A stretch of 64,000 nt of DNA, from NCBI GenBank assembly GCA_003116975.1, contig BGKB01000008.1:124001-188000 (forward strand), read 5' to 3'. The translations under genes were made by a program, and so were the position numbers. How positions within the stretch are numbered: the stretch's first letter is position 1; the number at the start of each line of letters is the position of its first letter. The notes beneath the pieces are model-generated. The model did not search any database. It worked only from the letters and a program-made list of their open reading frames with translations, and was not told where the DNA came from. Source of the stretch: Aurantiochytrium sp. KH105 (taxonomy: Eukaryota > Sar > Bigyra > Thraustochytrida > Thraustochytriidae). This document shows, in pieces, positions 16,293 to 36,946 of the stretch.

Positions 16293-19200
16293 CTAGAACC
16301 AGGGCGCTGGGAGCGGCCGCACCGACGTGTCGTGACACTCCTCGTATGAGCCTGTTCCGCGCACAACAACGTCAAAATCCAAGCCTGCGTCAACAACAAA
16401 TCTGAATTTGGTCTCGTGGAAACCCTGCCGAGAAGGACTGAAGCAGAGGCTGATAGCCAGTGGTACTCGCTTTCCGTTGGAATCAAAGCCTTTTGGCATG
16501 TAGCCCTGCGCCGAAGCCAGTGGCAGCGTTGGGCCGGCGAGGACCCCGCTTTCGACGTCAAACGACCAGCACGAAGGGTCATCAATTGTCTCTGGGTTGT
16601 TCGGGCTACTGATTCCAGCGCGAGCTTTCTTCGGCACGTGGGATACGCGCCAGATCGCAGGAACCACAGTCGGGTTAGCCATATACAGTACCGTGCGTGT
16701 TGTTGTTTCTACGTGCACATGCCCGAAATCGAAGACTGCAGGTGCTAAAAGCACCGCAGGAGATACAACAGTGCCTTCGAGATCGACGCCCTGGTGCTCT
16801 CCATTGTGAAAATATATATCGAGTGCTCCCGGATACGTCGTTCTGAGCACGTCGTTGGGATCATGCGCCAATTTGTTGACGAGTTCCGCAGGTTGGAAGC
16901 GCAGTGTCAGCGCCAGCGTAGCGCCAGGCGGAAGACCAGCTTCCTGACCCTGTGCAAGAACCTCCGGAGGCACCACTTTGCGGAGCTGAGCGAGTTCGCG
17001 ACCGGGCAGCGCCGCCGTGGAAGCGCTCGTGGTGCGTAGCTCGTCAAGTACGAAGGGTGGCTCCGTGCGTACAACGCAGCATGTGTGCGTGGCTGTAGAA
17101 TTTGTAAATGTCAGCGTTTTGAAGAAGGATCCATGATCTCGTGCTCTGGTAGACCATGCCACAAAACCTAGAAATGCGCGCCCTTGAGGCCCGCGCTTCG
17201 CGCGGTCCAGCTCAAGGCAAGGTTTCGCCGAATGTGCCCCGAGGTGGATCCGTTCAAAGTCTCGCAAAGGTGCCCGTGTTGCAGCACCTGCTGGAGGACT
17301 CATATTTCGAGATGCGCGCGAGTCTCGAGAGGCTGTCCGCTCTCCATCGCAATGCTCTGCACCTTGTACGGTACCTATTGAGCTTGTGAGCAATTCTGTG
17401 GCAAGGTTCTCGAGCGTGATAATTGAAACTGCCGCTCCGTCGTCATCCACGGACTTGAGATGGGCTTCATCGACCCAGTCGGCGTCGGCGATCATAATTG
17501 CTGCGTCCTCTGCCTCCTCGGCTGAATCAGGGAAAAAGGTGACCCGGAAACTTCCGCTTGCATACGGCCTAATTTGCAATATGTGCGGTTCCACCACAAA
17601 AGGTGGGGCTTTACTGAGATCCGCGTGCGGACGGAGCTTTACATGAACGCGTGCGTCGATGTCTTCTGCCATTTTATGCTCATCAAAAGCTATGGATGTC
17701 TCCACGAGATCTGCTTTTGGACCCCGCTTGGCCACGACGCGCCACGAGACCTTGGCAGCCACTGGTCCATTGTTGGAAACCTTGATGACTTTGTAAACAG
17801 GTTCGGTACCCACAAGGGGATGACCAAAATGAAGTCTTGATTCGCCCTGGCGCTTGACAAGACCAACTGTGTTTGAAGCCAGACAGAGGGGTGAACCCTG
17901 AACAGACGCTTTGATTGGCGCCACGCTGGGATTGAGGCCGTCCACAAGGCAATGCAATTCGCTTCTGTATCGACCAGGCATGTTGTTGAAGCAGTAGACG
18001 TCAATGATTACCGACTGCCAGGGGCGCAGCATCCCAGTCTTTGGTAGCGCAAGAAAGGCCACGCCCCGCCCCGCAGAGAGGACCTCGCGATCCTCAAGCG
18101 CTTGTACCTTAGCTTCGATATACTTGCGCCCACTTTTGCTGGCATAGACGCTCCACTCCTCGTGCGCACTGCCAAGCTTTGCCACACTTTGTCCAGTATA
18201 GGAGCTCGGTTTGGAAGATTTTCCAGGCGAAGTTGGAGAATTATTCTCGTCATGGGGTGTTGTAAGCGAGCGGGGTACTGTCTTTGCCGCAAAGGCCTTG
18301 ATGACAACCTCGTACTTTGTAGTGATCGCCGAATGATTTGCAATGCAGAGGCGCAGGCGCTTTCGCTTGCAGAGCTCAAGATCACTGCCGAAATCTAGAG
18401 CAGGGACACCTGTATTGCTCGCGCTGCTGCCACTGGTGCCGGAAGCAGTGGCAGCAGCACCACTACCACTAGTACTGCTTCCTTTCGATGTAGCGGTGCC
18501 GCCAAGAGCGCTCTCTGAAGTCGGTGGGCGACCAGGAGCCATGTCCGCAGCAGACACCTCTGGACCTACTAAGCTATAGGCAACGACGAGCCCGCGCACA
18601 AGCGAGTGCAGAGAAAATCCCAGAGGCACAGGCATGCCTTCAACTTCGCAAGCAAATAAGCTTGCAACGCGTCCTGGTTTGATGCCTTCGAAAGAGACCA
18701 CTATATCACGAGACTCCTTTGGCTCGAGTGTTCCTTCGTGACAAGAGAAACGTACATCATATGCTCGAGATATGGCTCTTTCATTTGCAGCTTTTTCATC
18801 CGCGCTTGGGTCGTCGTCACAAGAGGGTTCTACCCAGCGGAAAGGAGCGGCCAAATTGGACAGATTAACCAGGCGAACTGTGCGCGACACAGGCACAGTA
18901 ACATACGTCGTTCCAAAGTCGAGTTTGCATTGGTGATTGTCCTCACTCACCTGAAGAAACACCTTGGGAGACTGGATCTCTGCTCGAAGATTGATGAAAA
19001 GGGTCGAGCTGTGTTGTACGCGGACGCTCCAACATTTGCGCATGCGCTCTGGCGTATAACTCGCCTCGCAGATAACGCTAACGGTCCGCGCTTCCTGCGG
19101 AGCGAGCGAAAATGTGGACCCGTTGGTGATTGATATGCGTGCCGTGTCTTCCTTGGCGTCTGTGCTACCTTGGGTGACTTCTTGTAGACTCACCTGAGCA

Positions 19201-22200
19201 CTGGAGCTTGTGGACATGTTGCGAATGACGAAGTTTGTCTCTGAGGACTTGCCAACGCCGATCAGTCCAAAATCAACTTCTCTTGCTTCCAGAACGACGC
19301 TCGGGCCGATGACGTCGGCGTTGACACAGAGCCAATGAGTGGAAGGACGCCCATTCAGATTGCAACGAATACTATGGCACAAAACACCCGCCGCTCGTGG
19401 CACGAAGGCAAAGCGTACCTTTGTCTTCTCGTTCGGAGCCAATTGCACGTGTGTAGGAATCGGCGTGAATGTAGTTCTGCCATAATCACCCACGTCGAGA
19501 TTAGACCACGAAATACTCACGACGCAATCGCTCGTGTTGTGTATCATTGTAGATACCTCACCTTGCTGGTCTGCAAGCAAGGGTCGGCGGAGCTTTATTT
19601 GGGCGCTTGGTGCAAAGCTCACACTGGCAGGCTTACTCCCACCCGTCAGAGTCAATCGGGAGCAGGGAACACTGCGGAGACCGTCGTCAGATGCGGAGGC
19701 TCCACGCTTAGTCGATGAACGCTTGAGCTGGCGCGACGAAGCACCGTTCACAGCGCAAGGCGGGATGTTGTCAATGACGAGCTGCGCAAGAGCGCGATGG
19801 ATACAAGCCGCTCTCCCCGTGCCGACGGGGGAAAATCTGAGGGTAAAACTCTGTTCTGCGCCGGGTTCCAGGGTGCCTGCCGTGGGCTCGATGGCGAAAT
19901 CCTCGGAAGCCCTGGCGCGTACGTCTCTAATGGTCCAATGGAAGTTCAATGCAATGGGCGTTGGGTTAAGATACGAGATTGAACTGTGAGTAGTACCACC
20001 ACTCGTGATGCAGCCAAAATCAAGAGCTTGAGGGGGGGGAAGCAATGTCTTTCGGCTTATATCAAGCTGGCGGTCCCCTACGCGAGAGATTTCAATCTTC
20101 ACCTGACAGCTGGCCGCGCGGACTGTCACGAGCTGGACTTGACAATTGTCGCAGACCATTAGAAATGTAGCGCTCATTAATCCAACTGTCTGTGGAGCAA
20201 AACGAACGTGCAAGGCGGTTTCCTCGCCCGTGACGAGATCGAACTGTCTGGGCGAAACTGTGAATACCCCGCCTTGAAGCTGCAAATCATTTCCTGTATC
20301 TTCGTCTGCATTTGCGTGCATACCTTGTGCTGCCCACTCGCCTTCAGAAACAAGGCGAAAGCGCGCGGAACCCCCCTGGTTCGAGAACGGAAATGCGAGA
20401 GACAGGCGCGTGCCGACGAAGCACGAGCCCGCATTCAGATCTCGCGACAGAGAGAGTCTGGGCGGCGTTCGGCGAGCAACAAGTGCAATGCGGAAGCGCT
20501 CAGTCTCTGTACAAACAGTCACAAAGTCGCGATAATCTGCCAGCGAATCGGCACAGAAGGCAATGCGCAGATGGCAAGCCATACCTGGCGCCACGACAGA
20601 GGCTGTCGACGGGAATTCGGCGTCTGCAATCGAAAAGTACTTGCTCGTTGGTGGTAGAAAACGGAGCCCACGAGAGACACACGCCACGTTGACAATCTTC
20701 AGCAAACACTCTTGTGGCTCGTTGACCTCATAGTCTGTAAAGAACGCGAACCCAGGATCGACATTGAAGCTAAAGCTTAGTTCGGGAGATCCGTGCAAGT
20801 TCTCCTTTAGCTTGCTGCCTTCAGCTTTGATGTCAGCAATATGAGTGAGCCCGCACGCGTCGGCGTTTGCAGTACTTGCTTTGTTCGTCTGCAACGCCGA
20901 CGGTTCGTTGAGAAAGCCTACGTCCCAGGACTCTTCAAGCTGCTTTACTTCATCGGCTGCAAACGTCGGCGGCTCGGAAAGGTCTTTGTTAAGTAATGAC
21001 GCGCGCCAATCGCGTGTAGCTCGCGTGGTGAGTGTAAAGCGAGGATTCTTCAGGAAAGCAACTTGCTTTTTCATACGCGCCAAGAGTTCCATGTTGGCTT
21101 GCATAGCCTCCGAGGTCATCTGCGGTGCTTTGCTGAGAAGTTCCCTACGTCGCTTTTCTGCCTCCTCTTGCCGCTGAAATCGTTCTCCCTCTTCGGGCGA
21201 CAATTCGCTTCTCTCGTCCTCGTTGACCTCTTCAAAGCTATCCTGGTTTCCACGAGCTTGCTCTCTCGCACGTGAATCACCCGTGCCGCGAGCTTTGTAC
21301 TTTGCCTTTGCAGCCATCAGCGCCTTCGCCTTGCTTCGCTCTTTTGGCAAAAGGTAGTTGGGTGTGGAAGGACGCATCTCGCAAGCTTTGTCCTCACCCC
21401 GTGTGACCTGTCCACGCTTATAGAGCTCATTTTCTTCGTTGGCATCAAGCAGACGGTTCACATTGATTAGATGAGCGCTCATCTCTCCAAATTCGCGTAG
21501 TTTCGGGGCGTCAATCGCGTAGTGGCTCGGACCGAGTGGAAACTCTGCGCCAACAAGAAGGCCTTTGCTGTAAACCTCATCAGCAGCCTCCTGGTCGGCA
21601 GCAGCGGCCCGACCTCTTTCCGCTTCGAGGAAAATCTCAAGCTGCTTGGCCCGATCAAGTTCGTCGCGCAAGTCGCCTTCAATGACGCCAATTTCAGCTT
21701 GAAGCCCTTCCTCGGCAGGAATCCCGTCGTCGAATCCCAGCACATCCTTGACGCAGCAGTCTTGCTCCGTCAGTAAAGTAGTACTTTGCCGATCCACATT
21801 TGCTGACTCGTCAGACTGCTGATCCTCGACACGCGTCGCTGCATCGCCTGGGTCACTGGAGTCCTCGCTTTCAGGTTGGAGAGACCGCTGATCGAGTGAC
21901 TCTGCAGTGGTATTGTTCTCTTCATTGTCCTCATTGTCTGAAAGCTCGGACTCTGCCTCGTAAACATTGTCATCTTCGTCCGGACTTTCGTCGATGTTTT
22001 CTCGGCTCATACCCATCCCTTGCTCTGGGCTATGCATAGGGAGCTCATCCTCAACATCGTAAAAGTCCTTGAAGGTCTTTTTCAGAACGTGATCAAGTGC
22101 ACCAACAAGGCCTGTGGCAGCGCTTACGGGAGCAGGTGCTATTTTTGGAGAGGTTTCTGGCGCTTCAGCACCTTCTTGAGAATCTCTCTCCTCATTTGCA

Positions 22201-22289
22201 AGCTCCTGGCCTCCTTCCTCTCCCTCAACGACATGAAGAACATTCGCCCCAGCATCGTTCTCTTGGGCCTTGTCCTGCAATCCGTCCAT
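16293..22289 (-). CDS. DLEC1: DLEC1/CFAP81-like ASH-domain axonemal protein
   Basis: One 1,998-residue ATG-started frame. Residues ~1-330 are acidic and charged. A helical segment around 380-420 (LLARMKKQVAFLKNPRF) matches the conserved DLEC1 pre-domain. The first Ig-like ASH/MSP module (~500) reads FFTDYEV, LRFLPPTSKYFSI, VAPGMACHLRI and DSLADYRDF, closely recalling DLEC1. Further ASH modules begin near ~755 (LDFGCITSGGT), ~1005 (VDFGLIGVGKS), ~1122 (LDFGTTYVTVP), ~1298 (LDFGSDLELCK), ~1487 (FGHPLVGTEPV) and ~1853 (FDFGHVHVETT). DLEC1 and the related HYDIN family are ciliary proteins of the axoneme, so this points to a flagellated stage. A low-complexity Ser/Gly/Thr linker sits near 1265-1295. 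HYDIN and CFAP65 are the main alternatives; the first ASH module favours DLEC1. Confidence 0.78.
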   Translation of the reverse strand: MDGLQDKAQENDAGANVLHVVEGEEGGQELANEERDSQEGAEAPETSPKIAPAPVSAATGLVGALDHVLKKTFKDFYDVEDELPMHSPEQGMGMSRENIDESPDEDDNVYEAESELSDNEDNEENNTTAESLDQRSLQPESEDSSDPGDAATRVEDQQSDESANVDRQSTTLLTEQDCCVKDVLGFDDGIPAEEGLQAEIGVIEGDLRDELDRAKQLEIFLEAERGRAAAADQEAADEVYSKGLLVGAEFPLGPSHYAIDAPKLREFGEMSAHLINVNRLLDANEENELYKRGQVTRGEDKACEMRPSTPNYLLPKERSKAKALMAAKAKYKARGTGDSRAREQARGNQDSFEEVNEDERSELSPEEGERFQRQEEAEKRRRELLSKAPQMTSEAMQANMELLARMKKQVAFLKNPRFTLTTRATRDWRASLLNKDLSEPPTFAADEVKQLEESWDVGFLNEPSALQTNKASTANADACGLTHIADIKAEGSKLKENLHGSPELSFSFNVDPGFAFFTDYEVNEPQECLLKIVNVACVSRGLRFLPPTSKYFSIADAEFPSTASVVAPGMACHLRIAFCADSLADYRDFVTVCTETERFRIALVARRTPPRLSLSRDLNAGSCFVGTRLSLAFPFSNQGGSARFRLVSEGEWAAQGMHANADEDTGNDLQLQGGVFTVSPRQFDLVTGEETALHVRFAPQTVGLMSATFLMVCDNCQVQLVTVRAASCQVKIEISRVGDRQLDISRKTLLPPPQALDFGCITSGGTTHSSISYLNPTPIALNFHWTIRDVRARASEDFAIEPTAGTLEPGAEQSFTLRFSPVGTGRAACIHRALAQLVIDNIPPCAVNGASSRQLKRSSTKRGASASDDGLRSVPCSRLTLTGGSKPASVSFAPSAQIKLRRPLLADQQGEVSTMIHNTSDCVVSISWSNLDVGDYGRTTFTPIPTHVQLAPNEKTKVRFAFVPRAAGVLCHSIRCNLNGRPSTHWLCVNADVIGPSVVLEAREVDFGLIGVGKSSETNFVIRNMSTSSSAQVSLQEVTQGSTDAKEDTARISITNGSTFSLAPQEARTVSVICEASYTPERMRKCWSVRVQHSSTLFINLRAEIQSPKVFLQVSEDNHQCKLDFGTTYVTVPVSRTVRLVNLSNLAAPFRWVEPSCDDDPSADEKAANERAISRAYDVRFSCHEGTLEPKESRDIVVSFEGIKPGRVASLFACEVEGMPVPLGFSLHSLVRGLVVAYSLVGPEVSAADMAPGRPPTSESALGGTATSKGSSTSGSGAAATASGTSGSSASNTGVPALDFGSDLELCKRKRLRLCIANHSAITTKYEVVIKAFAAKTVPRSLTTPHDENNSPTSPGKSSKPSSYTGQSVAKLGSAHEEWSVYASKSGRKYIEAKVQALEDREVLSAGRGVAFLALPKTGMLRPWQSVIIDVYCFNNMPGRYRSELHCLVDGLNPSVAPIKASVQGSPLCLASNTVGLVKRQGESRLHFGHPLVGTEPVYKVIKVSNNGPVAAKVSWRVVAKRGPKADLVETSIAFDEHKMAEDIDARVHVKLRPHADLSKAPPFVVEPHILQIRPYASGSFRVTFFPDSAEEAEDAAIMIADADWVDEAHLKSVDDDGAAVSIITLENLATELLTSSIGTVQGAEHCDGERTASRDSRASRNMSPPAGAATRAPLRDFERIHLGAHSAKPCLELDRAKRGPQGRAFLGFVAWSTRARDHGSFFKTLTFTNSTATHTCCVVRTEPPFVLDELRTTSASTAALPGRELAQLRKVVPPEVLAQGQEAGLPPGATLALTLRFQPAELVNKLAHDPNDVLRTTYPGALDIYFHNGEHQGVDLEGTVVSPAVLLAPAVFDFGHVHVETTTRTVLYMANPTVVPAIWRVSHVPKKARAGISSPNNPETIDDPSCWSFDVESGVLAGPTLPLASAQGYMPKGFDSNGKRVPLAISLCFSPSRQGFHETKFRFVVDAGLDFDVVVRGTGSYEECHDTSVRPLPAPWF

Positions 22290-23965: not shown

Positions 23966-26900
23966 ATGAAGCGGCGGAGGTCCAAGGCTGCGAACGGGGC
24001 CAGGGCGAGCCGCAACCAAGAGCCCACGCAGGCCCGAGACCCGGACCAAGAGCAGGCAAGCGAAGGCATGGTGAGCGCCTACGTGGAGGGCGACAAAATT
24101 GACGAGGCGTGGAATTGGTCTCTCTCCACGGATGCGGAGATCCAGCGCGCGCTCACCGACTTTGTCGTCCTGGGCGTCCGTGCTGACGGCTCGAGGGACT
24201 TTGTGGCACTCAAGGAGCTCGATGATAAGGAGTCCTCTCAATTTGAGAGGTTTTGCGCGTACGGAAAACTCGTACTGGAACCCGCTGGCGTACGCTCCGG
24301 ACCTCCTCGGGAAGGCGTGTCTGCCCATGCCGTCGCAATGGCGGAAGCTCAGTACCAGACGCGAGAAGTCATTTCGCTCGAGAACGCGCACAAAATTCTT
24401 GACGGTCTTCTTTCGGAACGAGAGAGCGAGCCCTTTAATTCACCTGTGGATGCCGAGGCCCTCGGACTCGCGGACTATCATACCGTCATCAAAGAGCCCA
24501 TGGATCTTGGAACCATTAAAAGCGGCCTCGATAACGGTGAATACAGACCCGAGTTCATGCCGCTCCCTGGCGATAGCAATGGGGAATCGACCGACTCCGC
24601 ATCACGGGCAGGTCAATCAACGCCCTTGCCCTCTCAGCATAGCAAAGGAAAGCAAAAGAAAAAAGGCGGTGGAAAGAAGAAGGGCAAAGGAACGGACCAG
24701 ACGCCTGCAGCTTCGACCGACCAAGGGCTCGACAAGGAAGCTCCCGTTGCCGTGGATACATGCATGGCAGCTTGGGTGGACGCGGAAAAGCTCAATAATC
24801 ACCTCAAGCTAGTCTTCAGCAATTGCGTTGCGTACAACAAGAGTGACTCCCCCATTGTTGCATCTGCGCGATACATGATGGAGCGTCGTTCGAGATTGTG
24901 GTACCGGCACGGATCGAAAACTGCCGTTACGATTGACCGAAAGGGAAATTCGCTTACGAATTCAAAAATTGCCGAAATGCATGGCGCCGCTGCACAGGCA
25001 GTTGCCAACCTTGCTCCAGCGGATCCATCGGACCTCGTGCAAAAGGTTTACATCTCCAACGTCGTTGATTACATGGTGGAGTTCGGCATGGGCGGCGCCA
25101 GTTCTTCGTTGTGGATCGTTGCAGAAGCTCGCGTACCCCCCAAGGTTGCGAAACAGTCCTCCGGACGCCGTGGGCGCGGGTCCTCTTCATCATCATCTAG
25201 CGCCAATCACGCGCATGCCGCCAGAAAGGACGCACGCACTTTCTACTATCGCATCGCCTGCGTTTCCTACATCAATGACTACGTGCCCAAGGTCGAGCCA
25301 TCGCCCCCGTATGCATACTTTGCAGAGCGCACGCTCTCAAACTTTCATTTTTGCGCTCGTCTGGTGCATGAGCTTCGCGCTCGTTTGCAGCTTCAGCAGC
25401 AAGAGGCAATCGTGGCGAGTCAGGAAAGCCCGAGCAAAACTCTCTTACGAGTCGCGCTCTGGTGCTCAGAGATTGGCGCTCCGCTGCGCCCTTCAAGTGT
25501 CTCTTTTCTTCGAACAAACGGTACTTTCATTGAAGAGCAAATTTCATCGGTGAGCCCGCATTTGACCAAGGCCTTTGGGGTTGTCGATTTTCTTTTGCAA
25601 CTTCCTTCCCTCGACGACGCGTATCTAGCCGGCCTGTTCCCGGTTCCCGAGCCAGCCGCCATCTCACCACCGCAACCCTTTGAAGAAGCTTCCCTTTTGG
25701 AAGCTGCTCCTCCCCCCCCAAGCCAAACACTTTTATCCGCGCCCAAGACGGCGGATCTCCCTGATGCTGCTGCAGCCGACCAATCCGTCTCGAAAGCCAT
25801 GAACAGCACCGTAGACGTAGACGGCGACGTGGACATGGCACTGGCCTCAAACGTGGCAGGAGACGAAGGAGAAACCAAAGCTCTCGATCAACGAGATATA
25901 ACCCATGTTCAACGCGAAGCTGACGGCGCAGGGTTAGCGCATGGAACAGAGGTTGACATCTCAGCCCTGCGAAAGGAGCCAGCGCGAGCCTATGCCCTAC
26001 CTAAACCTCAACCCTTTCATGTCCTTGTGGACCCTGTGAAGAGCGCCAGGGCCCTCACGGGGTCTCCAGAGATGCAAAGCTGCCAAGATACAAGCTTGGC
26101 TTCGAGTTCGGCACAAGACTCTTTGCGTACCTCGCTTCGGGGTGAGGGCTTGCTTGGAATGCGTGTGGAAATGCTTTGGCCTGACGACGGCATTTGGTAT
26201 CCAGCAACAGTTGTTCGATACAGGCCCAAGACGGAGATGCATCTTTTGCAGTACGACGACCAAAATGCACTCGAGTGGTGCGACCTGAACTCGGGAAGCA
26301 ACGTGGAAACGACGTGGCGCCGGTTGCCCACACAAGACAAGCTGTCGTACGACACCGCCGCAATCGAAGACCGTATTGTTGCCATTCCTTGCAAGCATGG
26401 ACCTATCGAGCAGGTGGTTGTGCCGCCAAGCTTACTGGGCCCACTCACACGCGTATATACCTTTTTCCAGTGCTTCGCGGACCAACTCGGTTGGAGCATT
26501 CGACCATTCTCACTTTCTGAACTCGCAGCAGCGATCATGGCGAAGACAATTCGCTCTGACCGCAAGCGCGAAGCTGAAGCGATTGCTTCCGAACTTTTGG
26601 TGTGCGTCAATCTGGAGCTCATCAATTTGATCATGACCGAGAATGGACAGGCCTCAGAAGCCTTTGCGTTATTTAAACGATCCCACAAGGACGCGGACGT
26701 GCCTGTGCCAGAAACTCTGCTCCCTCCCACATCTCGCGACGAAGGCTCGGTCGTACGCTGGGCGTTCGACCAGGTCGGGCGTGCTGTGCAGGATATCCCA
26801 ATCCTCTCTCTCATGGAGCGCGACAAAAATTCGTCTCGGTTTCAAGAGGGTGCAAGCTGGCAACTGTTCAAAAGTGAAGTGCATGGGATGCTACGAGACC

Positions 26901-29900
26901 CAGCCTGGTTCGCGACCCGTGCCAACTTCCTTGAAAGCCTTTGTCGCTTTTACGTTGAGGTTATCCAATGGAAACCGCAGGCTGCACCGCGTCTCCAGGG
27001 TGTCCCGATCAACCTTTACACTGTCTATTCGCTCGTCAAGTCTCGCGGCGGCTTTCGCGTCATCGAGAGTCGCCAGTCCTCGGAAGAGATTTGGCATCAA
27101 ATCGCAGCGCAGATCCCGGATTATTTTGAGGAAGAAGTTGACGAGGAGGTACTAGGCCGCGACCTTCGCGACATTTACACACGCTATCTTCTTCTGTATG
27201 AGCGCGCTTACATGGGACGCGCGGCTCATGCTCGCCAGAGAATGGGCTCCAAGATTTTGCTTCGCAACGGCGAATTCGCCGAGGGCGCCGCCATCGGGCT
27301 CTCCCTTGCTGGGCCTGATCCATTAGCCGGCCTTCCTCCGCGGCCTAAGCGGAGCAAAGCACGCAAACGCGTCTCGGCTACAGACGGTGGCCTGGAAGAC
27401 GATGCCGACGACGCACAAGGCGAAGCAGTTGCAGAAGGTGCTACTTCGGTTTCTGTGCAAAATGTGAAGAAGACTTCCGCATATCATTTATTTGCGAGAG
27501 AGCAGTGGGATAAGAGCATGAGCTTCACCGAGTGCGCGCGTCTTGTGAGCGACCGATGGAGGGAGATGTCGCCCGAAGAAAAGGCTATTTATTCCGAAAA
27601 GGCAGCACTCATCGATCAAGAGAACGCCAAAATTAAGGTTGTCACCCGCAAGCTAGGCAAGAAGAAGAAAGTCAAGGTGAACGCGGGGCGCAAAAAGCGC
27701 GTCAAGCTTCGGAAAAAGGGCCGCACCGCCTTTACTTTTTTCGTCAGCGAGGAACTCAAAGGCGCGCACCAGGAGCCTATTGATGGCGAAAAAGATCGAA
27801 CGATCGTGAAGAGCGTTTTCACCGAAATTGCCAAGCAAGCTGCCGACAAGTGGAAACGCATGTCAGCGGAGGAACGCGCCCCATATCAAGAGCTTGCGCA
27901 GGAAGATGCCATTGTGGTCGCCGAGGCTCGGCGCCGTCACGAGGCTCAGCAAGCGGCAATCAGCCAGGGAAGTGCGTCTTCGAACGCCGCTTCTGGACCA
28001 GATAATCAGATGCCTCCGGGGGCGTCCAGGTCTGCTGATGAAGCTGCGGACCCTCCAAACCGAACTGCAAATGTAGTAGGAGCGCTCACTCGCGAGGGGC
28101 CCAAGGCACATCCTGGAGGCTCGGAAGACGTTTTTACTGTTCGCCCGGCGCGTGTGGGGCTTAACTTTCTGTCTATCAACGATTGGACGTGGCAAGAGTT
28201 TCTTGTCGAGGTGTTTTGCAGGCTGGAGGGTGTTGAGAATCCGCATAGTGCGGTGGCTAGCCGTCAAAATGGTCCGGAAAAAGCAAGCGAAGAAAAGACG
28301 GGCGGGCCTCGAAAGGATGGTGCTGCCGAGGCCGAGGCTGACGCCGGGGCGACTTCGGTGCCAGGTTCTTCGGGTGAGGACAAGCCAGCTTCACCCAGTT
28401 CCCATGAACCGACCGCCGCGATGCAAAGAATCAAAGCCCTGCATGACCTCGCGCAAGCGGCGGACGACGACGTGGGCAACTACGATTTGAAGGATGAGGA
28501 GGCGAAGGAAGATGATTTTTGGAAGATCGAACCGAGCACAGAAGGTGCTGCGAGCGTCAACGAGACCAGACACGAAGATGATGAAGGCGACGATGACGGG
28601 GGTGGGGATGGAGTTGCCGAAGAGTGCGAGCGCTTGATCGAAGTTCTCATGGCGCACCCTTTGGCCTCTCCGTTCACTGAGCCAATTGATCTCTCCCAAC
28701 CGGGTATGCGCAACTACACGAAGACAGTAGCGGAGCCCATTTCCCTCAGTGAAATTCTTGAGCGCCTACGAGCAGGGTTTTACCACTCTGATACGGTTCT
28801 GGAGCTCGAGGCTTTTGCGATGGATCTTCGCATGGTGTGGGCAAACGCCAAGGCTTTCCACAAACCTGGCTCTGAGTTGCACGAGGATGCAATACATCTC
28901 GAAGCGCTCTGCGCGGAGCGACTCGACGGTATCTTCGAAATGGACGCTCTTATTGAGGGTCAACGCGAGGGAATGGCCGCTGCCTGCGCAGAACGAGTGC
29001 TTCGAGCATCAGATGCAACTCTTCGCGCACGCTACGAAGGCATTCTAAGCAAGTTCCCTGTCTCACACGGGCCAGGCCCGAGGGGGTCCAAGAGATCCCC
29101 GCAGGAAGAGCTCAAACGCCTACGTCTCCGCTACCCTCGCAAAGTTGTCGGACAATACGCACTCGACAAGCTCATGAAGGAGCCTTTTGCAGAGCCTTTC
29201 CTTGAACCAGTTGACACGTCCCTTCCAGGTCTCGAGGATTATGACGAAGTGATTACAAAGCCTTTGGACCTCGGAACAATTGCAGAAAGACTCCGCAGTG
29301 GACATTATGACTTTTATGCTTCCATTGACAAGTCTTCGCTTGCGCCTAAATTTCTGCGCGACGTCAAGCGTGTCTTTTCGAATTGTGTAGATTACAACGG
29401 GGCGAGCTCGGAAATCGGCAAAGCCGCACGCAAGCTCTCCAGCTCCTTCGAAAAGACTCTCACAGTCGGGACTGCTCCAGGATACTCGGATGCGGAAACG
29501 ATGCCCACCATCGGTTCGCGGCAGATGATTTCGGCAACGGGAGAAGTTCGTCGACCTGTTCAGCGCATTCCCATTGGCATCTATGCCGATATGGACAATG
29601 CCGCTCAAGGTCATGCAGATACCGCACCAGGGAAGACTCTCGAGCCCCGCGGCGGAGCTGATGACGCACGAGACATGCGCTCGCGGCCAAAGATGAGTGA
29701 CGACGTCTCTATGGAAGATGTCTCATTGACGGCTCAGAGTACCGCGGTGCCTGAATCGAAGGCCGCCGACGATGATGGTGCAAGACAAATCTCATCCGCC
29801 GCCTTGCCGCCTGTGATCCCAGATGCCAACGCCGCGGAACACAGCAACGATGTTTTGGCAGCGGGCGCGACAGCCTCTGTGAATGAACGTTCGCAAAGTC

Positions 29901-32900
29901 GAGACCCCCTCCCTACTGACACATCAGCAGACGATGGGGCGGATGTTGCGCCACAGCGCGAGTCTCTCCCAAGTGTTTGCGGCCGAATTCTGACGAATCT
30001 CGTGTCGAGTTCAGGGTTTGCTGCAGCGGTAGCCACGTCTAATTCTCTGCGAGAGGACGTATCGGCCATCCGTACCAAGCTTGAGAATGGCGATTTTAGT
30101 CTAAATGAGAGTGGCGAGATCGGAAACGAGTTCGCAAAGCAAGTGCGTACGCTACTTTCGACAATGGCAGATGCAACTGCCGGGTCTGAGGAGCAAGCAA
30201 AGAGCGTCGCGGCCTGCGCGGAGACCTTTGAGCAGCAGTACGCTCTCGGTCTCCGAGATCATGCCACAAGCAAGTGGGCATGGGTTGGCGAAAAGATCCT
30301 TTGGCTCGATGTGCGAATCCAGCCTCCTACGATCAAGACTGCGCAAATTCAGGATTACTACGCGCTGCCAAAGTACCGGTACAAGCACATGCGCTCAAAG
30401 ACAGACTTTCATCGCCTTCGCGTGCAAGTAGAAGCCGAACCAAGTATGATGCCCTTGAATCTTTGGACCGATCAGACGATGGCGCATCGAGTCACAAAGG
30501 GCATTGGCTCGTATGCGAACACATACGGATTTCATTGGACCTTTGTTGCCGATGTGGAAGGTTCGGGGGCCATGATTAAGGCCAACGAAGTTACTGAGCT
30601 TGGTCTCGAGGACGATCCGGCAGATGACCTCTTGGTTGACGACGACGATGACGACGACGATGACGATGATGACGTCAATGGCGGCGAGGACGACGGCGAG
30701 GATGACGATGGCAACGATGACGATGACGAGGATGACGATGTCGACGAAGCACGCGTTCGAGAAGTTGCCTCTGCCATGGAAAAGGATGAAAGTACAAGGA
30801 CAAGCAGTAGTGCAAACGGCAATATGCGCTCCGGACTGAAAGATGCAGGAAGCATAGAGTCCGCTATGAAGCTTGTCCCCGAGGTTCTTGAGTTTTGGAA
30901 ACCTGAGGAAATCCCTGCATCAGAAAGCATGCTCGCGACCAAGGACCTTTTGGCTGAAATTCTTGATGTCGACTATGCCGCACTCGCGCCGCACGTCAAG
31001 TTGGCGATTCTCGAACGGCTCTGCGAGCAAGTAGTGAATGCTTTTCCCGTGCGTATTGGAATTGCTATGGCTCTTGGTGTGCGAAAGCCTCCCGATCAAT
31101 TCGATCTTGGGCCGAAAGAAGAATCAGACTTGTTGCTGCGTGGTCGCCGCATTGGCCCGTACGCAAATCGAAAGGGGCCAGGAAGACCGCGAAAGAAGGC
31201 TATTGCCAGTGATGATCCAGATAGCGCGGAGGATGAGAACTTTGTGTCCGCAGCAACGCCCGCACTCGGCAGCGCTGTTACGCGGCGAAGGACGAGAGGA
31301 AAGCGAGTCAAGTACCACGAGGTGGAAGAGGTGGACGAAGAAGAGGAGGAGGCTGAAGAAGAAAACAACGGGCATGATGGCGGCGACGTGGACGCAGAGG
31401 ACAAGAAAGTAGTGGCGGCATCGATTCGCGCTTCCCTCAAAGGATCTTCAAAGCCGCGACGCGGGCGCCCTGCAAAACGGGCGCAAGCGACACCCCAACG
31501 CACGCCTGCGAAACGAGGAAAGGCGCGTGCACGCAAGACTAGCGGTGCAGCTTCAGCACCTCCTTCGCGACGATCAAGAAGCCGTACTGCCACGAACTAC
31601 GCGGAGAGTGACTCTGGCGCAGAGCAAGACCCTCCTGAAGAAGAGGACATTGATGAAAATGATGGCGATTTCGCCACACCTTCACGGAGGCAGTCGGGAC
31701 GCAATCGTCAAAAAACGGAGCATTTCGTAGCAGAGCCGCATCGATACTCACGATCTTCCTCAAGGCAGCAGACGTCGCGTATGTCAACTCGCGCGACCCG
31801 CAGCGCGAGCGCACGAAAAGCCACGGAGCCACAACGCCAAACTCGTGGTCGCAAACGTGGTCGTCCTGCTGCTGATGCTCCTGCTAACGCTGGCTTGACC
31901 AATCGAAACGACGATGATGACGATGATGATGATGATGATAACGCAGGCAACAACAATAACAACAACGATCGAGCTGCAAACGTGCTGGAGGAAACCGAAG
32001 ATCAGGACGTTGACATGTCTGACGACATTGATGCCGAAACTTTGAACGCTGTCCAGAAGAAGGAAAAGCTTAAGGCAATCATGGACGCCTATGTTACGCA
32101 GGAGAGCTCTTCTCTGCTCCGCTCGGAATTTGACATGGAGCTTGCTGCATGGAGGGAGTCTTCTCCTATTGTCAAAGCCGCTCCTTTCAATCCCGAGCGC
32201 GCCGCAGCTGGCGAGAGGCCAATGCAAAGTCCTCGCGGATCAGCGCCAGCCGTGAAGGCTACGGAAGGCCCAAGCGTGAATGGAATGGTCGCCGCGTCTT
32301 TGCAAGCTCCTTCGGAAACTGTGGATCTTGTAGGGAACGTCGATTCTAAAATGGCAACGAGTGCCCCGGCATCTCCAAGCGAAACAACTCACGGTGTTTC
32401 TACGGAGAAGCCTTGTGCGGCGGAATTGACTCCTTCACCGGCGCCGTCAGCATCTCAACATCTGAATCAGGCTGTAAAGACTCCCGCGCCCCTGAAACGC
32501 AGTGCAAGCCAGGCAACGAGCGCGAGTCGTCTCAGCAAGGCTGGTGGGGCTGATGGTGCTGCTGTGGAGGACAATAGCGGCCTTAGCCAGCATATTCGAG
32601 CGCCTGCGGATCCTTTTGTAGTCTCTATCGCTGAATGCAAGAAAAGGCTTGGGCAGCTCATGAAGGATCGATCGAGCCAGCCCTTTCGCGAGGCGGTCGA
32701 CACGTCTGCTGCCGGTTTTGAGAGATACAGCAAGTTCGTATCGCGACCGATGGATCTCGGGACAATTCGAGCGCGGCTTGAAAAAGGTGATTACGATGCT
32801 CTGAGCACCGAAGGCAAGCCCATCGTTGGCTCCTCGTTTCTCAAAGACTGCGAGCTCGTTTTTGCAAACGCCGCGCGCTTCTTCGCACCCGGGTCCAAAA

Positions 32901-35900
32901 CGATGAAGCAGGCAGCAAAATGCGAGGCGAAGCTGAACGAGCTACTGGGTATCAAGGATACTCCGCACGCTGTGCAAGGGATTGCCAAGGCTCTTCACGT
33001 GCTTCGTTATCAGCGAGGCTGCCTCGAGCTACTCGACGATATTTTTGCAGAGCATGCGGCAATCGTTCAGCGCCTTGGGGACCTTACCCCTCGCGAGCAA
33101 GCTGGATACGTTCGTGCACTCGGCAAGGAGAACCTGAATTTCGATGCAGTGCGCTCAGAGCTTGTGAACGGGAGCTATGAGCGCGAGGCGGAAGCCGCAT
33201 TTCGTCGCGCAATGCGCAAAGGGTCTGGCGGAGTTGCCAACCCAAAGCAGCGAGGCCTTGGCTTTGGGCGAGACATGCGTGCTGTGATGACGGCCTACCG
33301 CGCAGTGTTCGACCCGGTATCTGCAGAGGCCGAACAAATCACAGCTCTCATGGTATCTTTCGAGCGTCGCTACGCAGTAGTTCTCCGGGAGCACACGGTT
33401 GCCCGTATGGCATGGCTCGGTGAGCGCATTTTCGTCGCGCACGCCTCGCGTTTGCTGGTACCTGCTCTGGTGGCTGGGTCCGCGTACTCAAACAACTCCC
33501 TGGCATTCCGCGTGCTCTTGCAAACTAGCGCTTCGAGCACAACTGAACGGCCCATGTGTTTGTGGACAGCGAGTACGCGTCGCGACTACGAGAGGGATCA
33601 CGGTCGGACGGGAGGGCACAATCGTTCAGCCAAGCAACGTTCACGAGCTGCCCTCGACGTCTCAACACTGCCGCGATCGATGTATGGCGTCCATTGGGTG
33701 TTTGCAGAGGACGTGGAGACCGTCACGAAACTGGAGTCTCGGCTTTTGGATACCTCTGCCAAGGCGGTGCGAGTGCAGAAGCGCGTTGCAAGCGTGATCG
33801 CAGCTCAGCTTCGCCAAGACGTGCAGCAGCTCGAAGGAAGACGAAAGCAAGTTCTTGACGCTGAAAAGAAGGAGGGGCAGCAACTGCGCCGCAACTTGCA
33901 GCAGAATTCAAGTCTGAGCAATGGCGAAGGCGCTGCAGCTCGGCGACACGCCAAGGACCTTACCAAACTTGAGGGTGATGTTGCTGTAGGAGATCGCGCT
34001 GGAGCATCGAGCCTTATCGATGTGATCCCGGTTTCCGACATCCGTCGCGAGGGCCCTACAGAATTGGACCCTGCGCCTCTTCGTGCTTTTGAGAAGGAAT
34101 TTTATGCTCTGCTACGACCCAAGCGGGCACCGCAGCTCGCAGATGAGCTCAAGGTCGAGGATGTGGATAGTGCTGTGGGCCCCCTCGAGGCGGAAAGCTC
34201 ACTGTGCCCGCGCTTCAGCCCGCTTGGGCTTGATCGGCATGGCAGTGCGTATTGGTATTTCCAGAACAACAGTACGAGCGTCATTGAGAGCGACGCTGGT
34301 TCATTTGTGTTTGTGTCCCTGTCTGAGACCGCCCAGAGCGAGCTCGAGGTAGAAATCTCCTCTTTGGGCCCTCGACGCCTGAAACCCAGTTTTGGGGGCA
34401 AATTGGGCGAACAAACCGCTTGGCTCGCTTATGCTGGGCGCGCACAAATCGAGTCCCTGCTTGCTGCTCTTCACAGAGGTACAGAGGAGGAACAGAACAC
34501 TTATGCGAAACTTGTTCCTCACTACACCACACTCGTTTCGTCTTGGCGGCGCTCTGGAAGCGAGTTTTTGTGGACGCCGCTCACCCAGTCTCGCGCCGAG
34601 AGAAAACGCGTGCACACGTTTGAGCTCACCATGGGCCCTGAAATTACAGTGTGTCTCTCCCGCACACCTCTTGCTTTTGGCGGAGCAAGCTTTATCGTGG
34701 ACATCCGGCAACACAAAGTACAACAACAATCGCTCGAGACCGAAATCTTGGAGCAAGGAAACGAAGCGCCCTCATTGCCAAAATTACCATTGCGTGTTGG
34801 GGACGTTTTGCTCAGCGTTGGCGCAACGTCATGCGCGGGGCTCGGTCCTCAGGAGGTCGCAGCTGGGTGGATGGCGGGTCTTCGGAGTACTCAAGGTTCG
34901 CTGACGGTGACTGTGTATCGTCCGCGCCCCGAAGCCGCTCAGCAGGCCATGTCATTTTGTCGAGACGGCGATGTTGCCGTGGCCCACCATGCACCGCAGC
35001 AACTTGTTGCGCGAGTCATGCCTCTCGCGGTGCCAACACACTCGACAATGGTGGATCTCGTTCTCGCGCTTGAAGCGCACCTATGGTCCATGGGGACTGC
35101 AGAGCCGCGCATTCTCAGCGCTGTAGAAGAGTGGCGCTGGCTTCACAACTGGGGCCAGTGGAAATGGCCGTCGCGGCGAGTGCAGTGGCACCGTCGTGTA
35201 TCGGACCTGGGCGAGGACATCGATGCCGGGAAAACACGCGGGCGGGACGCGACCGCCCTTGTGGCTGCCGCACTCCGATCCGTGTGCCGCGCCTATGTAT
35301 CGACTATGCCGCCAGTGTACTTTTACATTGCGAACGAGGATCAGGAGGGTTTCGACGCGGCTTCGGAGTCACTGTTGCGTAGGAGCCAACGACTCTCCAT
35401 CCGCGAGTTGGACTACAGTCGGCCCGCTTTCAAGATATCAAGTGCAATCTATGGCTTGCCAGTTGAGGCAGAGTGGCTTCGTGAATTGCATACTGTGCAC
35501 TCACTCTCGCACTTGGCGCTCTTGGCATCGTGGTTGTATATCGAGGCTGTCGCGCGCTTCACATCGGCAACCTTGGTGGCCAATCTGTCCCAAGCGCGAG
35601 CAGTGCAGTTCGAGCGTCTGAAAACAAGTCTTGCACGCAAAACTCGTCGACAGCGCATTGGCCAGCCGCAAGCATGGCATCGCCTGCGAAAGATGCAAGT
35701 TGAAATTCAAACAAAGCTTCGTGAGGCCCTTACCCCGCAGGAGCTCGCGCAGGTGAAAGATGTAGAGAGCGGCCTGCCATTGCTCCCGGGAACCGGTCTC
35801 CCGCCACCGCGCAAAAGCGAAGAGGATGTTCAGGACTCGAACGTTGCGCCATCGTCATCTTCCGCATCAGAAGCGCGAGCGGCAGCAGCAGCGGCAGCTC

Positions 35901-36946
35901 GCGTCGAGGAGACCGGGGACCGCAAGATCGGTGCAAAACAGAAACGAGTCGCTGCCACCGACGAGGAGGGCAAGGGCAGCAATGCAAAGGTCCCCCGTGC
36001 CGAAGCTAAGGGGTCTCATGCGTCTGGACCGCAGGGAGCCTCCGACCCGAGCAGTGATAGCGAAGAATCCCCCCTCGTGCACGAGCTGCGCGAGATCAAG
36101 GAGCGGGTCTCCAAGGTCGAGGACATCGATTCGGATACAGAGGAGAAGATTCGAGATCTCTTGAGTCAAAAACCAAAGCGTCGCTCCGCTTGGCTGATGT
36201 TTGTCGTCGATGGACGGCGACAGCTGCAAGCCGAGGACGGGGTAAACATGGACATTACGCAAACGACACGTCTTTTGCGCGACAAGTGGCGCTCCCTGTC
36301 GGAACAAGAGAAATCTGCTTGGCAACAGCAGTCCGAGGCTTACAATCGTGCAAATCGGGCCATTTTCAGCGAGTTTGATGACCTGAGCAAAATGGCTGAA
36401 GCCGCCCGCGTTGCGCAAAGATCCGGCCATCGACCGCGCCGTAGCAGCAAGCCTCTTCATCTGCTCGAGAAAACGCGCGTGCTGACCTCGGGAGACTCGA
36501 AGGCTGCGCGAATGGCGAAGAAAAAGCTTGCCAAAGATAATAAAGTGCATAGACCTGTGGGGCGACAGAGCGACTTCCTCGGGCTCTCAAGGTCTCGAGC
36601 GCGATGGAAGGTTGACATTGTCTGTCCCGATGGCGAGGTGCGGCAGGTGGGGCGATTTGACAACGAAGTGGTTGCAGCGCTGGCTTATGACGAGGCCCTT
36701 CGTATGATGTATCCACTGAGGGTGGCCGAGGCTCTTGCGAATTTTCCTTTTGAACAGAGTGTTCGGGCGCTGGAGGGCCAGCTGCCTGATATTCCGGACT
36801 TTGAACGGAGGATACACAGGGCGCTCGAGGATGCTCAGGACGGCGAGGGCGCCGAAGAGGATGACGAAGACGAGGATGACGATGAGGACGACGACGAGGA
36901 CGAAGACGAGGATGTGGAAGATGAAGCTGATGCAAGCAAAGCTTAG
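23966..36946 (+). CDS. Giant multi-bromodomain / ARID / HMG / DDT-WHIM / PDZ-like / AP2 chromatin protein
   Basis: A single uninterrupted frame of 4,326 residues from the first in-frame ATG, encoding a predicted nuclear chromatin regulator. Order: bromodomain 1 (~140-312, with a Lys-rich insert of ~85 residues); Tudor-like GMRVEMLWPDDGIWYPATVV (~731-790); DDT-like (~828-895); ARID (~980-1090); HMG boxes (~1168-1225, ~1249-1318); bromodomains 2 (~1554-1660) and 3 (~1730-1835); degenerate bromodomain (~2004-2090) plus unassigned module A (~2092-2202); acidic tract (~2215-2260); AT-hooks with GRP cores (~2402, ~2496, ~2626); bromodomain 5 (~2890-2995); degenerate bromodomain plus module B (~3010-3254); WHIM2-like PLGLDRHGSAYWYF (~3417); PDZ-like (~3555-3650); HMG (~4069-4130); AP2-like (~4200-4265); acidic tail. 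It merges features of Polybromo, ARID2 and BAZ/ACF1 proteins. Only bromodomains 1 and 3 keep the acetyl-lysine Asn. Confidence 0.88.
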   Translation: MKRRRSKAANGARASRNQEPTQARDPDQEQASEGMVSAYVEGDKIDEAWNWSLSTDAEIQRALTDFVVLGVRADGSRDFVALKELDDKESSQFERFCAYGKLVLEPAGVRSGPPREGVSAHAVAMAEAQYQTREVISLENAHKILDGLLSERESEPFNSPVDAEALGLADYHTVIKEPMDLGTIKSGLDNGEYRPEFMPLPGDSNGESTDSASRAGQSTPLPSQHSKGKQKKKGGGKKKGKGTDQTPAASTDQGLDKEAPVAVDTCMAAWVDAEKLNNHLKLVFSNCVAYNKSDSPIVASARYMMERRSRLWYRHGSKTAVTIDRKGNSLTNSKIAEMHGAAAQAVANLAPADPSDLVQKVYISNVVDYMVEFGMGGASSSLWIVAEARVPPKVAKQSSGRRGRGSSSSSSSANHAHAARKDARTFYYRIACVSYINDYVPKVEPSPPYAYFAERTLSNFHFCARLVHELRARLQLQQQEAIVASQESPSKTLLRVALWCSEIGAPLRPSSVSFLRTNGTFIEEQISSVSPHLTKAFGVVDFLLQLPSLDDAYLAGLFPVPEPAAISPPQPFEEASLLEAAPPPPSQTLLSAPKTADLPDAAAADQSVSKAMNSTVDVDGDVDMALASNVAGDEGETKALDQRDITHVQREADGAGLAHGTEVDISALRKEPARAYALPKPQPFHVLVDPVKSARALTGSPEMQSCQDTSLASSSAQDSLRTSLRGEGLLGMRVEMLWPDDGIWYPATVVRYRPKTEMHLLQYDDQNALEWCDLNSGSNVETTWRRLPTQDKLSYDTAAIEDRIVAIPCKHGPIEQVVVPPSLLGPLTRVYTFFQCFADQLGWSIRPFSLSELAAAIMAKTIRSDRKREAEAIASELLVCVNLELINLIMTENGQASEAFALFKRSHKDADVPVPETLLPPTSRDEGSVVRWAFDQVGRAVQDIPILSLMERDKNSSRFQEGASWQLFKSEVHGMLRDPAWFATRANFLESLCRFYVEVIQWKPQAAPRLQGVPINLYTVYSLVKSRGGFRVIESRQSSEEIWHQIAAQIPDYFEEEVDEEVLGRDLRDIYTRYLLLYERAYMGRAAHARQRMGSKILLRNGEFAEGAAIGLSLAGPDPLAGLPPRPKRSKARKRVSATDGGLEDDADDAQGEAVAEGATSVSVQNVKKTSAYHLFAREQWDKSMSFTECARLVSDRWREMSPEEKAIYSEKAALIDQENAKIKVVTRKLGKKKKVKVNAGRKKRVKLRKKGRTAFTFFVSEELKGAHQEPIDGEKDRTIVKSVFTEIAKQAADKWKRMSAEERAPYQELAQEDAIVVAEARRRHEAQQAAISQGSASSNAASGPDNQMPPGASRSADEAADPPNRTANVVGALTREGPKAHPGGSEDVFTVRPARVGLNFLSINDWTWQEFLVEVFCRLEGVENPHSAVASRQNGPEKASEEKTGGPRKDGAAEAEADAGATSVPGSSGEDKPASPSSHEPTAAMQRIKALHDLAQAADDDVGNYDLKDEEAKEDDFWKIEPSTEGAASVNETRHEDDEGDDDGGGDGVAEECERLIEVLMAHPLASPFTEPIDLSQPGMRNYTKTVAEPISLSEILERLRAGFYHSDTVLELEAFAMDLRMVWANAKAFHKPGSELHEDAIHLEALCAERLDGIFEMDALIEGQREGMAAACAERVLRASDATLRARYEGILSKFPVSHGPGPRGSKRSPQEELKRLRLRYPRKVVGQYALDKLMKEPFAEPFLEPVDTSLPGLEDYDEVITKPLDLGTIAERLRSGHYDFYASIDKSSLAPKFLRDVKRVFSNCVDYNGASSEIGKAARKLSSSFEKTLTVGTAPGYSDAETMPTIGSRQMISATGEVRRPVQRIPIGIYADMDNAAQGHADTAPGKTLEPRGGADDARDMRSRPKMSDDVSMEDVSLTAQSTAVPESKAADDDGARQISSAALPPVIPDANAAEHSNDVLAAGATASVNERSQSRDPLPTDTSADDGADVAPQRESLPSVCGRILTNLVSSSGFAAAVATSNSLREDVSAIRTKLENGDFSLNESGEIGNEFAKQVRTLLSTMADATAGSEEQAKSVAACAETFEQQYALGLRDHATSKWAWVGEKILWLDVRIQPPTIKTAQIQDYYALPKYRYKHMRSKTDFHRLRVQVEAEPSMMPLNLWTDQTMAHRVTKGIGSYANTYGFHWTFVADVEGSGAMIKANEVTELGLEDDPADDLLVDDDDDDDDDDDDVNGGEDDGEDDDGNDDDDEDDDVDEARVREVASAMEKDESTRTSSSANGNMRSGLKDAGSIESAMKLVPEVLEFWKPEEIPASESMLATKDLLAEILDVDYAALAPHVKLAILERLCEQVVNAFPVRIGIAMALGVRKPPDQFDLGPKEESDLLLRGRRIGPYANRKGPGRPRKKAIASDDPDSAEDENFVSAATPALGSAVTRRRTRGKRVKYHEVEEVDEEEEEAEEENNGHDGGDVDAEDKKVVAASIRASLKGSSKPRRGRPAKRAQATPQRTPAKRGKARARKTSGAASAPPSRRSRSRTATNYAESDSGAEQDPPEEEDIDENDGDFATPSRRQSGRNRQKTEHFVAEPHRYSRSSSRQQTSRMSTRATRSASARKATEPQRQTRGRKRGRPAADAPANAGLTNRNDDDDDDDDDDNAGNNNNNNDRAANVLEETEDQDVDMSDDIDAETLNAVQKKEKLKAIMDAYVTQESSSLLRSEFDMELAAWRESSPIVKAAPFNPERAAAGERPMQSPRGSAPAVKATEGPSVNGMVAASLQAPSETVDLVGNVDSKMATSAPASPSETTHGVSTEKPCAAELTPSPAPSASQHLNQAVKTPAPLKRSASQATSASRLSKAGGADGAAVEDNSGLSQHIRAPADPFVVSIAECKKRLGQLMKDRSSQPFREAVDTSAAGFERYSKFVSRPMDLGTIRARLEKGDYDALSTEGKPIVGSSFLKDCELVFANAARFFAPGSKTMKQAAKCEAKLNELLGIKDTPHAVQGIAKALHVLRYQRGCLELLDDIFAEHAAIVQRLGDLTPREQAGYVRALGKENLNFDAVRSELVNGSYEREAEAAFRRAMRKGSGGVANPKQRGLGFGRDMRAVMTAYRAVFDPVSAEAEQITALMVSFERRYAVVLREHTVARMAWLGERIFVAHASRLLVPALVAGSAYSNNSLAFRVLLQTSASSTTERPMCLWTASTRRDYERDHGRTGGHNRSAKQRSRAALDVSTLPRSMYGVHWVFAEDVETVTKLESRLLDTSAKAVRVQKRVASVIAAQLRQDVQQLEGRRKQVLDAEKKEGQQLRRNLQQNSSLSNGEGAAARRHAKDLTKLEGDVAVGDRAGASSLIDVIPVSDIRREGPTELDPAPLRAFEKEFYALLRPKRAPQLADELKVEDVDSAVGPLEAESSLCPRFSPLGLDRHGSAYWYFQNNSTSVIESDAGSFVFVSLSETAQSELEVEISSLGPRRLKPSFGGKLGEQTAWLAYAGRAQIESLLAALHRGTEEEQNTYAKLVPHYTTLVSSWRRSGSEFLWTPLTQSRAERKRVHTFELTMGPEITVCLSRTPLAFGGASFIVDIRQHKVQQQSLETEILEQGNEAPSLPKLPLRVGDVLLSVGATSCAGLGPQEVAAGWMAGLRSTQGSLTVTVYRPRPEAAQQAMSFCRDGDVAVAHHAPQQLVARVMPLAVPTHSTMVDLVLALEAHLWSMGTAEPRILSAVEEWRWLHNWGQWKWPSRRVQWHRRVSDLGEDIDAGKTRGRDATALVAAALRSVCRAYVSTMPPVYFYIANEDQEGFDAASESLLRRSQRLSIRELDYSRPAFKISSAIYGLPVEAEWLRELHTVHSLSHLALLASWLYIEAVARFTSATLVANLSQARAVQFERLKTSLARKTRRQRIGQPQAWHRLRKMQVEIQTKLREALTPQELAQVKDVESGLPLLPGTGLPPPRKSEEDVQDSNVAPSSSSASEARAAAAAAARVEETGDRKIGAKQKRVAATDEEGKGSNAKVPRAEAKGSHASGPQGASDPSSDSEESPLVHELREIKERVSKVEDIDSDTEEKIRDLLSQKPKRRSAWLMFVVDGRRQLQAEDGVNMDITQTTRLLRDKWRSLSEQEKSAWQQQSEAYNRANRAIFSEFDDLSKMAEAARVAQRSGHRPRRSSKPLHLLEKTRVLTSGDSKAARMAKKKLAKDNKVHRPVGRQSDFLGLSRSRARWKVDIVCPDGEVRQVGRFDNEVVAALAYDEALRMMYPLRVAEALANFPFEQSVRALEGQLPDIPDFERRIHRALEDAQDGEGAEEDDEDEDDDEDDDEDEDEDVEDEADASKA

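Follow-up and report, generated by a model that had tools for sequence, protein, structure and literature searches.

The window analysed here, a 64,000-nucleotide stretch of contig C8 in an assembly of 76 Mb and 367 contigs, contains one very large open reading frame on the plus strand, which runs from an ATG at position 23966 to a stop codon ending at 36946 and encodes a chain of 4,326 aa (Table 1). Its neighbours include two adjoining family 8 glycosyltransferase genes on the plus strand (8433–10304 and 10892–12700), apparently a tandem pair, and two adjoining GDSL-lipase-like genes on the minus strand (44224–45897 and 46779–48482), the second of which scored just below Pfam's cut-off. Another long gene, a single minus-strand frame of 1,998 aa (16293–22289), contains Ig-like domains of the HYDIN/CFAP65 type, and for that reason suggests that the organism may have a flagellated stage. 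The PfaA profile (TIGR02813) matched the genome at up to 930 bits, under its cut-off of 1010 and scattered across several frames; 11 of 14 control genomes gave matches too, none of them above the cut-off, so that a thraustochytrid lineage is hinted at but by no means proved.

The extent of the giant frame was assessed from codon-position composition and from a second allele. In the listed open reading frame the start was a GTG at 23555, upstream of the ATG, and the leader so included was devoid of any codon-position pattern (GC content of 0.68, 0.69 and 0.69 by position). Such a pattern was present in all nine blocks (up to 500 codons each) of the 4,326-aa frame. For comparison, when the window was shuffled 20 times, plus-strand open frames grew no longer than 230 aa. 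The second allele, located on contig C132, encodes 4,333 aa and is also open throughout; it lies within a colinear stretch of ~36 kb in which the two contigs share about 94% DNA identity. All seven indels separating the alleles keep the frame, and 4,142 of the 4,322 aligned codons specify an identical residue. Over these aligned codons dN was 0.019 and dS 0.092 (dN/dS = 0.20), with values of 0.5 or lower in each of the 14 full 300-codon blocks as well as in the last partial block. Most matches to the families searched in this genome were likewise paired on two contigs with near-equal frames; we read these pairs as two haplotypes, the alignment test applying to the giant gene only.

Collectively, these data show a continuous frame under purifying selection, and the single frame of 4,326 residues described in the first-pass annotation is thereby borne out. 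Long low-complexity linkers, both acidic and basic, could be taken as a sign that two or more genes, or introns, had been read through by chance to give an annotation artefact. We consider this highly improbable in view of the 13 kb without a stop on both alleles, the preservation of frame by every indel, the block-wise dN/dS values and a codon-position pattern that persists throughout.

Constraint between alleles was stronger in domains supported by profiles (dN/dS = 0.115, 893 codons) than in the remainder of the chain (0.224, 3,429 codons). The same trend was seen with a wider set of 18 regions (2,146 codons), which took in unconfirmed PDZ-like, WHIM1-like, duplicated and unnamed regions (0.11 versus 0.30 for the remainder). 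Zero residue changes were observed in the Tudor-type domain, HMG box 1 and the AP2 domain. Two domains ran counter to the trend, namely bromodomain 4, whose six changes gave a dN/dS of 0.62, and HMG box 2, in which one residue change and no silent change separated the alleles.

Table 1. Features of the giant open reading frame, in order of position within the window
Feature	Position	Strand	Evidence
Single open frame, 4,326 aa	23966–36946	+	Open reading frame and allele on C132
Bromodomain 1, interrupted by a Lys-rich insert, YN asparagine kept	24392–24859	+	Pfam, own-genome profile and alignment
Tudor/Agenet-type domain	26147–26305	+	Agenet 18.5 bits (cut-off 27), E = 0.0028
DDT domain, slightly below the Pfam cut-off	26435–26638	+	21.3 bits (cut-off 22), E = 3e-4
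ARID domain	26918–27202	+	47.7 bits (cut-off 24.1)
HMG box 1	27470–27619	+	HMG_box_2 33.1 bits (cut-off 22.4)
HMG box 2	27713–27907	+	HMG_box_2 33.6 bits (cut-off 22.4)
Bromodomain 2, FH replaces YN	28643–28882	+	Own-genome profile 49.3 bits
Bromodomain 3, YN kept	29159–29434	+	Pfam, own-genome profile and alignment
Bromodomain-like helical stretch (by eye) and module with AWVGE, LWT and HWTF, copy 1	29969–30571	+	Alignment with copy 2
Candidate WHIM1 motif, marginal	30938–31063	+	Own-genome profile 5.7 bits
Low-complexity stretch with three AT-hook-like GRP motifs	31175–31870	+	GRP cores
Bromodomain 4, FF replaces YN	32636–32917	+	Pfam 58.9 bits
Bromodomain-like stretch and module, copy 2	33008–33730	+	Alignment with copy 1
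WSD (WHIM2, D-TOX E) motif, GxD signature reads GLD	34211–34492	+	Pfam 32.6 bits (cut-off 25.4)
Region earlier called PDZ-like	34625–34930	+	No PDZ match
Conserved region of no known family, aa 3690–3939	35033–35782	+	dN/dS 0.036 between alleles
HMG box 3	36167–36340	+	HMG_box_2 30.8 bits (cut-off 22.4)
AP2 domain, divergent, C-terminal	36569–36718	+	Own-genome AP2 profile 30.4 bits

Most of the DNA-binding parts named in the first-pass annotation were recovered. Pfam confirmed the ARID domain and placed all three HMG boxes over the cut-off, and the AT-hooks correspond to three AT-hook-like GRP cores. The proposed Tudor-like fold was upheld in part: this stretch stayed below Pfam cut-offs but aligned to the solved chain 7de9, which we take to be a Tudor domain, with an E-value of 6.9e-5, the SMN chains coming next at E = 0.4.

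The AP2 domain was not found by Pfam's general AP2 profile. We also employed a profile built on 21 AP2 domains taken from 20 loci of this genome, which recognised the C-terminal domain both in a 141-aa segment (the score given in Table 1) and in the whole chain (23.8 bits), the best of 2,000 shuffles reaching 5.2 bits; the AP2-like domain is thus supported and the chain can be counted among AP2 domain proteins. Counting both members of allele pairs, the genome gave 69 AP2 matches at E up to 1. Only 13 of them were over Pfam's cut-off, so that the general profile understates the AP2 family in this genome. Against such a background the AP2 domain does not stand out here as a particularly plant-like trait. 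In an AP2-rich protist, then, the general profile can overlook this domain, and a chromatin protein can harbour it.

All four bromodomains previously called recognisable were confirmed, by Pfam or by a profile iterated on other proteins of the genome, which identified four in the chain at 49 to 68 bits (best of 50 locally shuffled copies, −0.1 bits). According to the alignment, the asparagine of the YN position, presumably the acetyl-lysine asparagine, is kept in two of the four (bromodomains 1 and 3). The insert in bromodomain 1 has a counterpart in another chain of the genome, L005, whose bromodomain is split at a similar place. Two additional, degenerate bromodomains had been proposed, and neither received any score from the own-genome bromodomain profile.

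Comparison of the chain with itself revealed similarity between aa 2029–2198 and aa 3073–3251 (23% identity, BLASTP E = 3.3e-11, hhalign probability 95%), and the two segments are diverged internal copies. In each copy, which sits after a bromodomain, a helical stretch is followed by a module with AW(V/L)GE, LWT and HW motifs; judged by eye, the helical stretches resemble a bromodomain lacking its signature, although the bromodomain profile gave them no score. A third copy was not detectable when the N-terminal stretch 321–560 was compared with copies 1 and 2. AlphaFold predicted only helices for aa 3015–3145 (pLDDT blocks of 37–72), and the models, built from two-row alignments, had mean pLDDT values of 34.6 and 35.8, too poor for fold tests.

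The PDZ-like fold of the first-pass annotation was not substantiated, as neither Pfam nor the solved structures offered a PDZ match. Downstream, aa 3690–3939 rank among the regions most constrained between alleles, and yielded no Pfam match, no match in this genome other than the allele, and no relative in a genome contig collection that holds no eukaryote genomes. A scan with the ARID of a viral contig collection, also without eukaryote genomes, found no relative. Three Pfam-poor segments, totalling 1,302 of the 4,326 aa, were searched against the genome for relatives. Besides the gene and its allele, the matches listed for the first lay mainly in an acidic low-complexity run and in the internal copy, the second had none, and for the third the Tudor stretch gave two weak ones (E = 0.09 and 0.10). 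The chain had no match in NCBIfam, and no ATPase was found in it by Pfam.

A WHIM2-like segment had been noticed earlier, and the WSD motif found there by Pfam, a feature of the DDT-WHIM superfamily, was over the cut-off. An own-genome WSD profile of two sequences gave it 15.5 bits, where 3,000 shuffles reached at most 7.9 bits, and its dN/dS between alleles was 0.20. The DDT-like segment fared less well against Pfam, scoring 17.4 bits when taken as part of a long segment and reaching the near-cut-off value of Table 1 when the segment was trimmed, and it was missing from the six-frame DDT search of the genome (E up to 1). It was nevertheless the best of 95 chain windows for an own-genome DDT profile of two sequences (7.2 bits, all others at or below 1.7 bits), a score equalled or bettered by 16 of 20,000 shuffles and exceeded in 3 of 3,000. 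A WHIM1 motif between DDT and WSD is marginal and is not claimed here. The segment concerned (aa 2325–2366) was first chosen by eye; an own-genome WHIM1 profile of four sequences then peaked at about aa 2290–2400, the best of 77 windows, with a score that 22 of 20,000 shuffles equalled or bettered and 4 of 3,000 exceeded. Over the whole chain the same profile gave −0.7 bits, pairwise comparisons were weak, and a Pfam search of aa 2080–2420 returned no WHIM1 match. The order along the chain is DDT, the WHIM1 place and WSD, with a distance of ~2,500 residues from DDT to WSD.

Related architectures were found elsewhere in the genome, several of the fetched chains being truncated by the ends of the fetched stretch. 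There were nine WSD matches (eight over the cut-off), five DDT matches (four over the cut-off) and nine ARID matches, all over the cut-off. L006 is a DDT-WSD chain. L015 resembles BAZ/ACF1, with DDT, WHIM1, a bromodomain and PHD-like matches below cut-offs. L003 is MBD9-like (FYRN, RAMA, bromodomain and WSD, with MBD and WHIM1 below the cut-off), its RAMA domain being one that the Pfam name ties to restriction enzymes and adenine methylases. L005 combines FYRN, FYRC, Med26, bromodomain, WSD and WW; L007 combines SNF2, chromo, bromo and ARID. A separate chain, L010, has six bromodomain stretches and shows neither BAH nor HMG. ARID also occurs on KDM5-like, LSD1-like and CHD-like chains of this genome and is therefore not by itself a sign of ARID2; in the LSD1-like amine oxidase (L009) it lies at the N terminus, and SWIRM scored below the cut-off. 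The SLIDE domain typical of ISWI matched at two places, on contigs C9 and C35, from which we infer that the genome has ISWI.

Polybromo/PBRM1 has six bromodomains, BAH domains and HMG, and ARID2 has ARID, RFX and C-terminal zinc fingers. The giant chain shares with PBRM1 several bromodomains and HMG boxes in a single chain, and with ARID2 the ARID domain. Membership in the Polybromo family was rejected: the HMG boxes are present, but there are only four bromodomains and no BAH (the BAH search of the genome gave no match on C8 or C132), and by bromodomain number L010 is nearer to PBRM1, though it too is without BAH and HMG. ARID2 membership was likewise rejected, as neither RFX nor a zinc finger appeared in the Pfam search (E up to 1). 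A tree of 21 bromodomains was computed after removal of second-allele rows, exact duplicates and rows with fewer than 60 aligned positions; the sixth L010 stretch was not included. Bromodomains 2–4 of the giant chain grouped with that of L015 (support 0.92; 0.10 and 0.81 inside the group), bromodomain 1 adjoined one L010 domain with a support of 0.00, and the four other L010 domains used fell elsewhere. This tree is weak evidence, pointing to internal multiplication of the bromodomains and away from a Polybromo origin.

Such results bear on whether the chain could serve one or more other remodelers (SWI/SNF, SWR1) as a targeting scaffold that works through its ARID, HMG boxes and bromodomains. 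Its bromodomain repeats, HMG boxes and ARID do recall PBRM1 and ARID2, and a bridge between two remodelers has a precedent in Arabidopsis MBD9, a protein with a bromodomain, DDT and WSD that links ISWI and SWR1 (PMC10451976). However, the six-bromodomain chain exists separately, neither BAH nor RFX is found in the giant chain, and three of its bromodomains group, in a weak tree, with that of a BAZ-like chain; we regard this reading as unlikely.

Nearer parallels are found among DDT-WHIM proteins. BAZ1A/ACF1 and BAZ1B/WSTF, whose DDT/WHIM module docks to ISWI (PMC8536118), carry DDT, then WSD and a bromodomain in one chain, as does the giant chain if its near-cut-off DDT is counted. The giant chain differs from them in having four bromodomains, one ahead of DDT and three between it and WSD, and in the addition of ARID, three HMG boxes, Tudor and AP2; neither WAC nor a PHD by the bromodomain, as in BAZ1/ACF1, was seen in the Pfam search (E up to 1). 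Plant MBD9 also unites bromodomain, DDT, WSD and other chromatin modules in a large chain (PMC10451976). Unlike MBD9, the giant chain has no MBD, FYRN/FYRC or PHD by Pfam, and the genome's own L003 is nearer to that protein. A single chain that combines bromodomain, DDT and WSD is already known, and what appears new to us is its extension, at such size, by ARID, HMG and AP2 together with an internal duplication. Among the titles and opening lines of abstracts listed in literature searches, no chain of such architecture was seen, a weak negative.

Given a WSD and a DDT just below its cut-off in one chain, we lean, by a little over an even chance, towards the giant protein being of the DDT-WHIM type in its broad sense, a subunit that targets an ISWI-family remodeler and contacts DNA for it but has no catalytic role. 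Linker DNA and the SLIDE region of ISWI are bound by a module built of DDT and WHIM motifs (PMC8536118), and in Paramecium ISWI1 is bound by WSD proteins (PMC11789628). This reading is favoured by the WSD with its GLD signature, the DDT score, the DDT-WHIM1-WSD order, the SLIDE domains, the MBD9-like and ACF1-like chains of the same genome, and the lower dN/dS of supported domains. Against it stand a DDT below the cut-off, a WHIM1 place without a Pfam match, the wide separation of DDT and WSD, and the high dN/dS of bromodomain 4. The GxD signature in itself proves little, because its mutation or deletion in Paramecium did not completely abolish ISWI binding (PMC11789628).

The weakness of DDT and WHIM1, the absence of the acetyl-lysine asparagine from two of the four bromodomains and the many DNA-binding domains, AP2 included, would also suit a stand-alone chromatin reader or transcription cofactor without a remodeler partner, in which DDT and WSD are remnants, decayed or repurposed for other contacts. 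The WSD is over its cut-off and constrained between alleles, however, and the DDT and WHIM1 places stand out within the chain; this possibility seems to us rather unlikely. Of the one-chain scaffold merging PBAF and ISWI-type parts that was initially envisaged, the ISWI/BAZ side gained ground through the WSD, the near-cut-off DDT and the SLIDE matches, and the PBAF side lost it to the six-bromodomain chain, the lack of BAH and RFX, and the bromodomain tree.

As an ISWI-type targeting subunit, the protein would be located in the nucleus, with its DDT and WSD parts attaching to ISWI at the SLIDE region and sensing linker DNA. Bromodomains 1 and 3 may read acetylated histone tails and the Tudor-type domain methylated lysine, and the ARID, HMG boxes, AT-hooks and AP2 domain would grip AT-rich or specific DNA beside the nucleosome. 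If the docking is true, one subunit of a remodeler in this lineage would carry both sequence-specific DNA-binding and histone-reading parts, which would offer a direct test of how ISWI machines are aimed and of how far domain shuffling can rebuild nucleosome 'ruler' subunits. A more ambitious proposal, decidedly unlikely in our estimate, is a single-chain hub for several remodelers, in which an ISWI-docking module is joined to an array of acetyl- and methyl-lysine readers and to a sequence-specific AP2 domain. Were that the case, target choice, histone reading and linker-DNA measuring, which are split over subunits in animals, would be fused in this lineage.
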